The notes beneath the pieces are model-generated. The model was not told the origin of the DNA, made no database searches, and saw nothing but the letters and a program-made list of their open reading frames with translations. The translations under genes were made by a program, and so were the position numbers. This document shows positions 1,545 through 4,557 of a stretch of 64,000 bases of DNA, piece after piece; within the stretch, counting starts at the first letter, position 1, and every line of letters begins with the position of its first letter. The stretch is from Torulaspora globosa (taxonomy: Eukaryota; Ascomycota; Saccharomycetes; Saccharomycetales; Saccharomycetaceae), in the NCBI RefSeq assembly GCF_014133895.1, contig NC_050727.1:868001-932000 (forward strand), written 5' to 3'.

Positions 1545-2188
1545 ATGAGCGCCATGATCATTAGGAAGCCCGGCCATCTGTTCCTTGAGGAGCTAAAAGT
1601 TCCTTACGAAGACGAAGGCGATTACGTTGTTTGAAGCACGCGGCATTGTTCATCTCCACTGTGATCTCTGAGGTTTTGAAATTCCCTAACGTCAAGCTAT
1701 TTAACGCTACTGCCGTCGAGGATCTGGTTACTAGACCAGATGGTCCAAACGGTGATCTTACTGTCGCAGGTGTGGTGACCAACTGGACTTTGGTCACCCA
1801 GGCCCACGGTACCCAGTGCTGTATGGACCCTAACGTCATCGAATTGTCTGGCTACAAGAACGATGGTACCCGTGACCCATCTGTCAAGCATGGTGTCATT
1901 TTGTCCACCACCGGCCACGACGGTCCGTTCGGGGCCTTCTCTGCCAAGCGTATCGTGTCGATCGACAAGAACAAGAAGCTAGGGGGCATGAAGGGTCTGG
2001 ACATGAACCACGCTGAAGCCGACGTTGTCCAAAATGCTGGTAAGTACAACGGTGTCAACTCTGTCTACTTTGCCGGTATGGAGGTCGCCGAGTTGGCTGG
2101 TTGCAACAGAATGGGCCCAACCTTTGGTGCTATGCTGGTATCTGGTATCAAGGCTGCCGAGGAGATCTTGAAGCATTTTGCCGAGTAG
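1545..2188 (+). pseudogene. THI4 3' fragment, copy 1: truncated and frameshifted
   Basis: Seen: the sequence encodes the C-terminal two thirds of thiamine thiazole synthase (Thi4), starting at the residues that follow the GGQLF region (about residue 113 of 326 in S. cerevisiae) and running to the family's normal ILKHFAE end. The N-terminal FAD/NAD-binding part is absent; nothing between 1444 and 1544 resembles it. From ATG 1545 the frame reads 29 codons to a TGA at 1632-1634. Beside copy 2, one base is missing in the codon before AAGCAC, so the remaining 185 residues are in another frame. The sulfur-donor cysteine region (QCCMDPN) is still present. Known: Thi4 is a single-turnover enzyme that donates sulfur from an active-site cysteine. 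Inference: a dead gene fragment, not an expressed enzyme. Confidence 0.88.
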
Positions 2189-2230
2189 ATAGTTACGTAC
2201 AGATCGCTTTAGATAACGTTTATTATGCCT

Positions 2231-2338
2231 AATTTCGATGCATTTGTCCAGAAGGCAAAATCAATTCATGGTGATAAGTTTCAGTATGACAAGTCAACTT
2301 ACATTAGGAGCAAAACAAAGATGCGTATACTTTGCCGG
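2231..2338 (+). repeat. 108-bp inverted copy of part of the nuclease gene, left arm
   Basis: Seen: every base from 2231 to 2338 matches the reverse complement of 3006-3113. The right arm is the piece of the nuclease gene coding for residues 203-238, the first half of its fourth repeat. The left arm lies in reverse orientation in the gap between THI4 copy 1 and the nuclease stop codon, 4 bases past that stop. The two arms are separated by 667 bases. Complete identity implies a recent event or continuing gene conversion. Confidence 0.97.
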
Positions 2339-2342
2339 AAAA

Positions 2343-3719
2343 CTAGAAAGTGGCTAGCTTGCCATAAATCATATGCAGGACGTGTCCTGTTTCATTGGCT
2401 TTGATCAGCTCGATCAGGTCTTGAACTCCTTGGATGACGTCCTGACCATCTTTCATCCTGAGAAGGTTGATACGCTTCTCTGTGCAGTAGTCGTCTTTCG
2501 CGCGATCTCTGGCCTGCACTCTGAGGAACTCCTCAAATCCTCCCCAGGCCTCCACGGGCTCAAAGTGCTGAATCCCGTCAAACTCGATGATAAGATTGAA
2601 CTGTTCAAGATAGAAATCGCACCTAAGCGATTTTTCGTACCGTAAATCAGGAAAACGCTTTTGCGATTCAAATTGATAATCCATCGTTTGTAGCCAATTT
2701 CTAATTTTTTTCTCATGCTTTGATTCACAGCACCACGAACAGCCACTGCCTTTAAGATGATTAACGGGCTTTTGAGAAAAGTATTTGGCACATTTTATGC
2801 AATAGAATATTGCCTCTTCTTCTAGGCTCTTGCCCAGAACGAGCTTATCAAACTTGTACGCCAGGCCGTGAATATTTCTGGATCTTTCCTTCACTTCATC
2901 GATTGTGAGGCGCTTATTCTCTAAAGAACATGAAGGGCAATAAAAACCCCCTTTGCGAGTAACACGAGCATGGTCTGCTGGGATTTGCCAGAATTCTCCA
3001 TGCTCCCGGCAAAGTATACGCATCTTTGTTTTGCTCCTAATGTAAGTTGACTTGTCATACTGAAACTTATCACCATGAATTGATTTTGCCTTCTGGACAA
3101 ATGCATCGAAATTCTGACAGGTAGCACACCCTTTACCCTTCAAATGAACAGTAGGAGTACATCTGAAAGGGCCGTGGTCTCTGCATACAATATCGACAGT
3201 AACATAATGGTTTTTATACTTGACCTGGGAATAGTCATAAACATCTCCATGTACCGTGATAGACAGTCCGACGAACTCATCATAGTCAGCAGGCTTTAAG
3301 GCAGGGCCCGAGGATTTATTAAAGACAGCACATTTTTGGCACCCGCTACCGATAAGATGACAGCCAGCTTTTTGAACGAACTCGCCATGCCGCGCACACT
3401 CGATTTTCACTGCACTTTCGTAATTAACGTATACAGTATCGGGATAACTGTACCGGTTATTATGTTTCTTCTTACAAGTTTCGATGAACTTTTCCGTAGT
3501 GAGAGCGAAAGTCTTTCTGATTCTCTCTCTGCCACACAGTTTGCAACCCATCCCGCGTCTATGATTGTCAGCTCTTTGACTCTGTACACCATGAATTGGG
3601 CAGGTATACTCAATTTTGCAGTCCCATCTGGTATAGTTTGTGATCGAGTAATTGTATTTGTCGTCGTGCACCTTACGGCACTCTTCAACGAACTCTTCCA
3701 GGCTCTTTTTCTTCGTCAT
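2343..3719 (-). CDS. Zinc-knuckle-repeat protein with C-terminal Vsr-like EDxHD nuclease domain; candidate homing endonuclease
   Basis: Seen: 458 uninterrupted codons from ATG 3719. Five tandem repeats of about 65 residues cover residues 6-331. Repeats 1-4 each carry C-x2-HG, and all five end in C-x2-C (C40/H43/C59/C62; C108/H111/C127/C130; C179/H182/C198/C201; C237/H240/C261/C264); repeat 5 has C307/C310/C327/C330. Residues 332-430 form a nuclease-like domain: E336, D368 in RCDFYLEQ, then IEFDGIQH (E379, D381, H385), and D405/K408 in DRAKDD. Known: this order matches EDxHD nucleases related to Vsr and I-Bth0305I. As I recall, similar CxxHG repeat proteins occur in phages and giant viruses. 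No S. cerevisiae gene resembles it. Inference: horizontally acquired mobile nuclease whose repeats bind DNA. A TATAAA lies at 3791-3796 on the coding strand, 72 bases before the start. The neighbouring THI4 fragments suggest its target. Confidence 0.88.
   Translation of the reverse strand: MTKKKSLEEFVEECRKVHDDKYNYSITNYTRWDCKIEYTCPIHGVQSQRADNHRRGMGCKLCGRERIRKTFALTTEKFIETCKKKHNNRYSYPDTVYVNYESAVKIECARHGEFVQKAGCHLIGSGCQKCAVFNKSSGPALKPADYDEFVGLSITVHGDVYDYSQVKYKNHYVTVDIVCRDHGPFRCTPTVHLKGKGCATCQNFDAFVQKAKSIHGDKFQYDKSTYIRSKTKMRILCREHGEFWQIPADHARVTRKGGFYCPSCSLENKRLTIDEVKERSRNIHGLAYKFDKLVLGKSLEEEAIFYCIKCAKYFSQKPVNHLKGSGCSWCCESKHEKKIRNWLQTMDYQFESQKRFPDLRYEKSLRCDFYLEQFNLIIEFDGIQHFEPVEAWGGFEEFLRVQARDRAKDDYCTEKRINLLRMKDGQDVIQGVQDLIELIKANETGHVLHMIYGKLATF
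3006..3113 (-). repeat. 108-bp inverted repeat, right arm (inside the nuclease gene)
   Basis: Seen: this is the source segment within the coding sequence, encoding NFDAFVQKAKSIHGDK and onward through the first cysteine of repeat 4. It is identical in inverted orientation to 2231-2338. Because this arm is in frame inside an intact gene and the other arm is not, this is taken to be the parent. Confidence 0.97.
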
Positions 3720-3912
3720 AATTATCTAATGTATTGAAATGTTGGTTTATTGACTGCTAATCCAAATACCTATCGAGAATTCTCTCCCCCTTTATAGTTT
3801 GAAATGCAAGATTTGGGCGGCTAGCTCGGCGGCTAATTGACGCGTCACAGCTCTTAATATAGAGAACCCCAAAAACGCGTAATCCAATGCATAGATCCAA
3901 CCTGGAAGTCTT
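3720..3912. promoter_or_regulatory. Divergent intergenic region between nuclease gene and THI4 copy 2
   Basis: Seen: a TATAAA on the minus strand at 3791-3796 faces the nuclease start, and a TTAATATAGA at 3855-3864 on the plus strand lies about 50 bases before the copy 2 ATG. The segment ATGCATAGAT at 3887-3896 resembles ATGCCTAGAT at 1506-1515 before copy 1, so a little homology may extend upstream of both THI4 fragments. No THI4 N-terminal coding sequence is present. Inference: this stretch could drive both genes; expression is not shown. Confidence 0.35.
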
Positions 3913-4557
3913 ATGAGTGCGATGATCGTCAGAAAGCCAGGTCACTTGTTCTTGGAGGAGCTGGAGATCCCATTCGAGGACGAGGGAGACTACGTGGTGG
4001 TTAAGCACGCTGCGCTTTTCGCCTCGACCGTGACCTCGAAGGTGTTGCAGTTCCCTAACGTGAAGTTCTTCAACGCTACCGCTGTGGAGGACTTGGTGAC
4101 CAGACCTGCCGGCCCCAACGGCGAGCTCACCGTCGCCGGTGTGGTGACCAACTGGACGCTGGTGACCCAGGCCCACGACCTGCAGAGCTGTATGGACCCT
4201 AATGTCATCGAACTTGCTGGTTACAAGAACGACGGCACCCGTGACGTGAGCAAGAAGCACGGTGTGATCTTGTCCACCACCGGCCACGACGGTCCATTCG
4301 GCGCTTTCTCCGCCAAGCGTATCGTGTCGATCGACAAGAACTCGCAGTTGAAGGGTATGAAGGGTCTTGACATGAACAACGCCGAGGCTGACGTGGTCAA
4401 GAACTCCGGTAAGTACAAGGCCGTCGACTCGATGTACTTTGCCGGTATGGAGGTCGCCGAGTTGGCTGGTTGCAACAGAATGGGCCCAACTTTCGGCGCC
4501 ATGTTGGTCTCCGGTATCAAGGCCGCCGAGGAGATCTTGAAGCACTTTGCCGAGTAA
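3913..4557 (+). pseudogene. THI4 3' fragment, copy 2: N-terminally truncated but with an open frame
   Basis: Seen: 214 codons from ATG 3913 to TAA, in frame, equivalent to Thi4 from about residue 113 to the C-terminus. It starts with the same SAM(I)[12 protein letters not shown] residues as copy 1, so both fragments begin at the same codon. The active-site cysteine is kept (QSCMDPN), as are [13 protein letters not shown] and [20 protein letters not shown]. By eye about 23 of 185 aligned residues differ between the copies. The dinucleotide-binding GAGSSG region is missing, so it cannot be a working thiazole synthase alone. Inference: a fragment carried with the adjacent nuclease gene; the intact frame suggests it is younger than copy 1 or still exchanges sequence with a full THI4 elsewhere. 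It is filed as a pseudogene because of the truncation; a translated short protein is not excluded. Confidence 0.8.

Follow-up and report, generated by a model that had tools for sequence, protein, structure and literature searches.

A THI4-linked nuclease island in Torulaspora globosa is probably a displaced copy of a WHO-like homing element

The closest described systems are the WHO elements of Torulaspora and Lachancea, in which a nuclease gene lies behind FBA1, the 3' end of FBA1 is replaced and displaced fragments are found (main text of Coughlan et al. 2020, PMC7282813). FBA1 is the main WHO target described there, and CAO is discussed as a possible target of WHO12. The same text describes WHO10 islands of T. 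globosa that hold FBA1 pieces together with pieces of other genes, and reports that WHO10 moves with FBA1 pieces after losing its FBA1 specificity. It also describes VDE in VMA1, which homes by break repair in meiosis (PMC7282813). Here we analyze an island in T. globosa where a nuclease gene is associated with 3' fragments of a different gene, THI4. It lies in a stretch of 64,000 nucleotides (positions 868,001 to 932,000 of NC_050727.1, assembly GCF_014133895.1), which we call the window. We conclude, with a probability of about 0.85, that the island is a displaced copy of a WHO-like homing element that has THI4 as its host gene and an independent nuclease. This reading rests on sequence: the THI4 anatomy, the three copies of the nuclease, an element-type 3' flank, a displaced fragment beside a MARVEL-domain gene, mosaic THI4 copies, the family and fold of the nuclease, and URS1 sites.

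A first-pass annotation of the window had proposed an intact nuclease-like gene between two THI4 3' fragments that begin at the same codon. This layout is real. The nuclease open reading frame (ORF) is intact, and there are Pfam Thi4 matches on both sides of it (Table 1). The left fragment (frag1) has a frame broken by one missing base, and its open part matched with an E value of 1.4e-25. The ORF of the right fragment (frag2) matched with an E value of 1.5e-67. Both begin at codon 113 and have common letters back to codons 110-111. The extent of the island had been given as 1545..4557, which was too short. In a whole-genome sequence comparison it spans approximately 1540-5430, on contig C1.

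We then searched the whole genome of this one strain (9,281,121 bases, 8 contigs). THI4-like sequence is present as one full-length gene (326 amino acids [aa], on contig C6) and four 3' fragments; the search gave six match rows, two of which are frag1, being broken. THI4 codons 1-112 have one 100% match, and their sole other match is 37% over 62 residues, in another protein. Therefore, because codons 1-112 occur once, the element carries 3' ends only. There are three full-length copies of the nuclease, one each in the window and on contigs C6 and C8, as well as a 108-bp piece in the window. A profile search of the genome found no nuclease genes beyond these three. At the protein level, the C8 and C6 copies are 94% and 93% identical to the window copy, respectively. 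All three nuclease copies abut THI4 3' fragments, and all four fragments abut a nuclease. Chance association is excluded because each of the three copies is joined to THI4 3' sequence. Copies away from THI4 sequence were not seen in this genome; homologues in other yeasts that are never near THI4 are what the first-pass annotation had named as evidence against its proposal. The three copies differ in letters and flanks, which makes an assembly artefact unlikely.

The C6 locus has the order full-length THI4, nuclease (opposite strand), displaced THI4 3' fragment, and convergent MARVEL gene. A search for such an arrangement, a full-length THI4 adjoined by a nuclease gene or a 3' fragment, had been suggested in the first-pass annotation, which gave as its weak point that no intact THI4 adjoins the window island, so that the island would have to be an old, moved or orphaned copy. 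Finding the full-length gene on C6 with the same nuclease beside it bears out that suggestion and removes the weak point. The nuclease gene is a separate ORF that lies behind THI4 and runs in the opposite direction, so it does not lie inside a host gene to be spliced out as an intein or intron would. The 139-bp spacer behind the full-length THI4 has 2 differences from the C8 spacer, and it is the displaced C6 fragment, not the full-length gene, that adjoins the DNA leading to the MARVEL gene. Therefore, the full-length gene has an element-type tail. The displaced fragment appears to keep its native flank, on the MARVEL-gene side. The proposed mobile unit is the THI4 3' end (from approximately codon 110 to the stop), the 139-bp spacer, and the convergent nuclease gene.

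Three of the four THI4 fragments start at codons 110-113; the C8 fragment starts at approximately codon 146. In frag1, frag2, and the displaced C6 fragment, the THI4 letters start at GTCTTATGAG, which is codon 113 with a few preceding letters. The junction codons are GGA AGT CTT ATG in frag2 and the displaced C6 fragment and GGT TCG TTG ATG in the full-length gene; both spellings encode Gly-Ser-Leu-Met. In frag1 they are GGG TGT CTT ATG. The junctions of frag2 and the displaced C6 fragment are related by copying, and the frag1 junction comes from the other lineage. A 20-base junction pattern is confined to these three fragments; elsewhere in the genome it has a single site at 3 mismatches, and the full-length THI4 is more than 3 mismatches away from it. 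TCTTATGA, found also at the THI4 fragment starts, is near the C8 junction, where it is either host sequence or a THI4 remnant.

The THI4 copies fall into two lineages. Lineage A comprises the full-length gene, the displaced C6 fragment, and frag2, and lineage B comprises frag1 and the C8 fragment. At the DNA level, frag2 is 99.2% identical to the 3' part of the full-length gene. Frag1 is 94.4% identical to the C8 copy over their common stretch, which takes in the nuclease, and 83.7% identical to the displaced C6 fragment. Frag1 and frag2 are only 80% identical, with a synonymous divergence (dS) of approximately 1.2, and dS is 1.1 to 1.4 for the full-length gene or frag2 against frag1 or the C8 fragment. 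This strong divergence means that frag1 and frag2 represent two THI4 lineages and not one duplicated piece. Between frag1 and the C8 fragment, 16 codons of 181 differ synonymously and 2 nonsynonymously, whereas the neutral expectation is 72 to 77% nonsynonymous (P = 6e-9 to 1.5e-7). Therefore, these THI4 ends diverged inside working genes. Of the 20 sites that differ between them, frag1 has the A state at 16, C8 at 1, and neither at 3. Either the C8 fragment is the deviant copy or frag1 contains patches of lineage A, and we used only the synonymous excess.

Some copies are mosaics of the two lineages. At 124 sites informative for A versus B, the full-length THI4 has the A state at all except 5, and its final three sites are among these 5. 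In the displaced C6 fragment, 23 sites are B, arranged as runs of 13 and 8 and two singles; the longest run in 20,000 shuffles was 8. In the one strain compared, then, the full-length gene is A with a B tail, and the displaced C6 end is a mosaic. Judged from these alignments, the mosaics show exchange between THI4 copies. Neither lineage is clearly closer to Saccharomyces cerevisiae, and neither stands out by this comparison as the native one: of the 21 residues that differ, 7 versus 8 agree with yeast Thi4. One difference between the lineages is HDLQSCMDP (A) versus HGTQCCMDP (B). We take the cysteine beside this difference to be the sulfur donor in yeast Thi4.

These data bear on the possibility that the islands are debris of DNA repair, in which a THI4 3' segment was duplicated, the nuclease was caught by chance, and copies were pasted in by break repair. 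The ectopic islands do hold unrelated pieces (in the window a FIT gene 3' end, at C8 the promoter and 5' end of ARO2), and a 108-bp inverted copy in the window is typical of break repair with template switching. However, the nuclease is found at THI4 itself, with a spacer common to C6 and C8, the two THI4 lineages have one breakpoint, and every one of the three nuclease copies is linked to a THI4 3' end. Plain duplication accounts neither for lineages with dS above 1 nor for the element-type flank behind full-length THI4. Nor do the fragments resemble the product of a segmental duplication older than the nuclease, which was the other outcome that the first-pass annotation had named as contrary to its proposal. 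We consider the debris explanation quite unlikely.

Table 1. Coordinates of the THI4 island and its flanks (window positions, unless a fetched locus is named)
Feature	Position	Strand	Remarks
Full-length THI4	L007 6529-7509 (fetched locus)		contig C6
HAD hydrolase (left host flank)	808..1443	-	YOR131C-like
THI4 3' fragment frag1, lineage B	1540..2188 (starts approximate)	+	codon 113 to stop, few letters before
Element spacer, THI4 stop to nuclease stop	2189..2342	.	first 43 bp as at C6/C8, rest rearranged
Inverted copy of nuclease bases 3006-3113	2231..2338	+	108 bp, 100% identity
Nuclease gene	2343..3719	-	458 aa, intact; full-length copies at C6 and C8
Nuclease catalytic domain	2385..2729	-	~aa 331-445
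Nuclease 5' flank	3720..3907	-	sequence comparison with C6
URS1/Ume6 decamer TCGGCGGCTA	3826..3835	+	reads TAGCCGCCGA in nuclease sense
THI4 3' fragment frag2, lineage A (displaced type)	3908..4557 (start approximate)	+	open, 214 codons
DNA as downstream of displaced C6 fragment	4558..4744	+	includes 3' end of convergent MARVEL-domain gene
Copy from C5 of the intact FIT gene's 3' end and the DNA behind it	4743..5430	+	98.8%; right island end
PX-domain protein (right host flank)	5513..7042	+	VPS17-like; EF2 gene next

The window island is an ectopic, moved copy with a 3' fragment of a FIT (fat storage-inducing) gene at its right end, which resembles the make-up of WHO10 islands. This piece, whose source on C5 is at 1696-2382 of fetched locus L231, is joined with a 2-bp overlap. 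The 108-bp inverted nuclease piece in the spacer looks as if it came from a fold-back or template switch. The host flanks encode a HAD hydrolase and a PX-domain protein, in agreement with the proposed insertion between YOR131C and VPS17. By S. cerevisiae names and gene order, these are YOR131C-like and VPS17-like, and the EF2 gene fits EFT.

The C8 island has the order THI4-B fragment, spacer, nuclease, and then the ARO2 promoter with approximately the first 145 codons. The ARO2 piece is a 93% copy (approximately 737-1929 of fetched locus L008, which is C8:696236-697428), and the intact ARO2 is elsewhere on C1. The piece is a 5' gene end, unlike most of the pieces reported from WHO10 islands, which are 3' ends. 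The insertion point is the end of a gene for a small membrane protein (L008 4099-4401, minus strand) beside ATP14, and this gene seems to lose its C-terminal end through the insertion. By synteny with the yeast gene order, this is presumably the YLR297W position, in the interval from YHC1 to ATP14.

A second alternative is that the nuclease is a free-standing homing enzyme with its true target elsewhere, and that THI4 is cargo picked up once, like FBA1 in WHO10. Two of the three nuclease copies are not at THI4, and the T. globosa WHO10, as described in the main text of PMC7282813, sets a precedent for moving with pieces of a former target. Cargo alone does not explain C6, where the full homing anatomy is present, with an apparently chimeric full-length gene next to the nuclease and a displaced end. 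We regard this alternative as very unlikely.

The nuclease has approximately five Cys/His-rich repeats (approximately aa 8-330, counted by eye) followed by a C-terminal Vsr/EDxHD-type domain. It matches phrog_559, annotated "HNH endonuclease," with an E value of 1e-70. No Pfam or NCBIfam family scored above the cut-off, and a PDB sequence search gave weak matches only (E values of 0.36 and above). Foldseek alone gave no E value below 0.001, with Vsr ranked 4th and 5th. After reranking with VIA-align, two Vsr entries and I-Bth0305I took ranks 1 to 3. The catalytic domain therefore has a predicted Vsr-like fold, as in I-Bth0305I. In an alignment of 22 sequences, for which 21 of the 40 listed ORF matches were taken, D368, E379, G382, and K408 are invariant and E336 is nearly so; these are candidate catalytic residues. 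Relatives are widespread in phages (939 of 50,697 records match by tblastn) and in GTDB genomes (235 of 342 candidate stretches encode one). Among the matches listed, identities are 27 to 42% in the best segments, with one short 52% segment, and none is close. A catalytic-domain tree built from the best 90 of 109 matches, which include the 3 yeast copies, did not place these copies within the family (support 0.23). One viral contig has four related nuclease ORFs in a row (L013 5004-9677). The nuclease has no match to Hom_end (LAGLIDADG) at E values up to 1, and the 14 PF05204 match rows of this genome do not include it. The nuclease is therefore of the phage/bacterial Vsr/EDxHD type and unrelated to the LAGLIDADG WHO and HO proteins, as the first-pass annotation had supposed when it assigned it to another family.

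All three nuclease 5' flanks have the exact URS1 decamer approximately 110 bp upstream of the gene, and the window site is 107-116 bp before the start codon. Between the nuclease start and codon 113 of frag2 there are 193 bp, with 5 differences from C6; at the genome's own density, 0.0027 URS1 sites are expected in a flank of this length. A 17-mer that holds the decamer has exactly three genomic sites, one in each nuclease 5' flank. Because the promoters are copies of a single sequence, they count as one observation, an ancestral URS1 retained in all three places. The site suggests that the nuclease may be expressed in meiosis, through Ume6. The exact decamer is absent from ten FBA1/WHO/HO/VDE loci (L059-L068; 10 of 11 Hom_end loci). 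Genome-wide, the decamer is 8.5 times commoner than its reversed control (128 versus 15), as expected for a working regulatory motif. The window has another exact copy at 31776-31785.

We infer cutting of THI4, the cut site, resistance via codon changes at 110-112, meiotic timing, and homing from these features. Expressed in meiosis through the URS1/Ume6 site, the nuclease would cleave THI4 alleles of a sensitive type near codons 110-113, and the chromosome bearing the element would serve as the template for repair. The cut gene would gain the element's resistant 3' end, so that THI4 would remain functional, and the nuclease gene would enter behind it. The recipient's old 3' end would be left downstream as a displaced fragment, which would be a second homology arm for later rounds. 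Occasional repair elsewhere would spread the element with pieces of other genes, for example to the window and to C8.

Several observations weigh against this model. Most of the 3' part of the full-length C6 THI4 is of lineage A, as is the displaced piece, and not of lineage B, so the model has to include a subsequent gene conversion. Only a few letters precede codon 113 in the fragments, and chance could account for some of them; the URS1 motif and codon changes are correlations. The ratio of nonsynonymous to synonymous divergence between nuclease copies is 0.78 to 0.84, and no purifying selection was seen in the window-C6 pair (33 nonsynonymous changes versus a simulated neutral mean of 34.4). 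It is also highly improbable that the nuclease is domesticated for thiamine metabolism or THI4 allele switching, as HO is for mating-type switching: reading frames are intact in all three copies, A/B gene conversion occurred, and THI4 cassettes could in principle be donors, but there is no sign of purifying selection between copies, the copies are at different loci, two with unrelated debris, and at C8 a host gene seems, by synteny, to be truncated by the insertion.

If a WHO-like THI4 element is the right reading, this is probably a second, independently evolved family of 3'-end-swapping elements in yeast. It would have arisen when a phage- or bacterium-type Vsr/EDxHD gene came into a yeast genome, acquired a meiotic URS1 promoter, and captured a THI4 end, with same-sense resistance at codons 110-112. 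WHO-type anatomy would then be a general lifestyle that homing nucleases of eukaryotes can reach by convergence. A second example, with its unrelated nuclease and different metabolic gene, would establish the class as general. It would demonstrate that a homing nuclease of phage type is able to persist in a eukaryotic nucleus as a meiotic selfish element, and it would account for THI4 alleles whose 3' halves diverge strongly. The system is small and lends itself to tests in laboratory yeast.

Among the papers listed in searches of the open-licence PubMed Central literature, none on a THI4 homing element or a Vsr/EDxHD nuclease of a yeast nuclear genome appeared, and THI4, URS1, and Ume6 are unmentioned in the main text of PMC7282813. 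The T. globosa genome itself has WHO-type genes: 11 loci, counting those that are HO- and VDE-like, give 14 Hom_end match rows. Besides the intact FBA1, it has nine dispersed FBA1 3' fragments of 109 to 135 bp, with one 26-base match inside one of them, and six of the nine are within approximately 1.2 kb of a Hom_end match. Therefore, WHO and THI4 systems occur side by side. The likeness to WHO elements, as they are described in that main text, is in anatomy, and at this level the proposed convergence on a gene-fragment-carrying strategy holds. C6 has a full-length host gene, a nuclease behind it, and a displaced 3' fragment of the same gene; the host gene appears to be chimeric and would stay functional, and there are ectopic copies with gene fragments, as for WHO10. 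The differences are the host gene, which is THI4 and not FBA1; the nuclease, which in WHO elements is an intein-derived LAGLIDADG-zinc finger fusion and here is of the Vsr/EDxHD type with Cys/His-rich repeats; and the promoter, with an exact URS1 in all three copies here and none at the ten loci noted above. VDE interrupts its host protein and splices, whereas the THI4 element lies behind its host gene. The phrog_559 relatives in phages and bacteria belong to the same sequence family, with none close among the matches listed. I-Bth0305I and other EDxHD enzymes are described as mainly phage encoded, whereas this is a nuclear yeast gene that is, as far as seen, not in an intron and is paired with the 3' end of a host gene.

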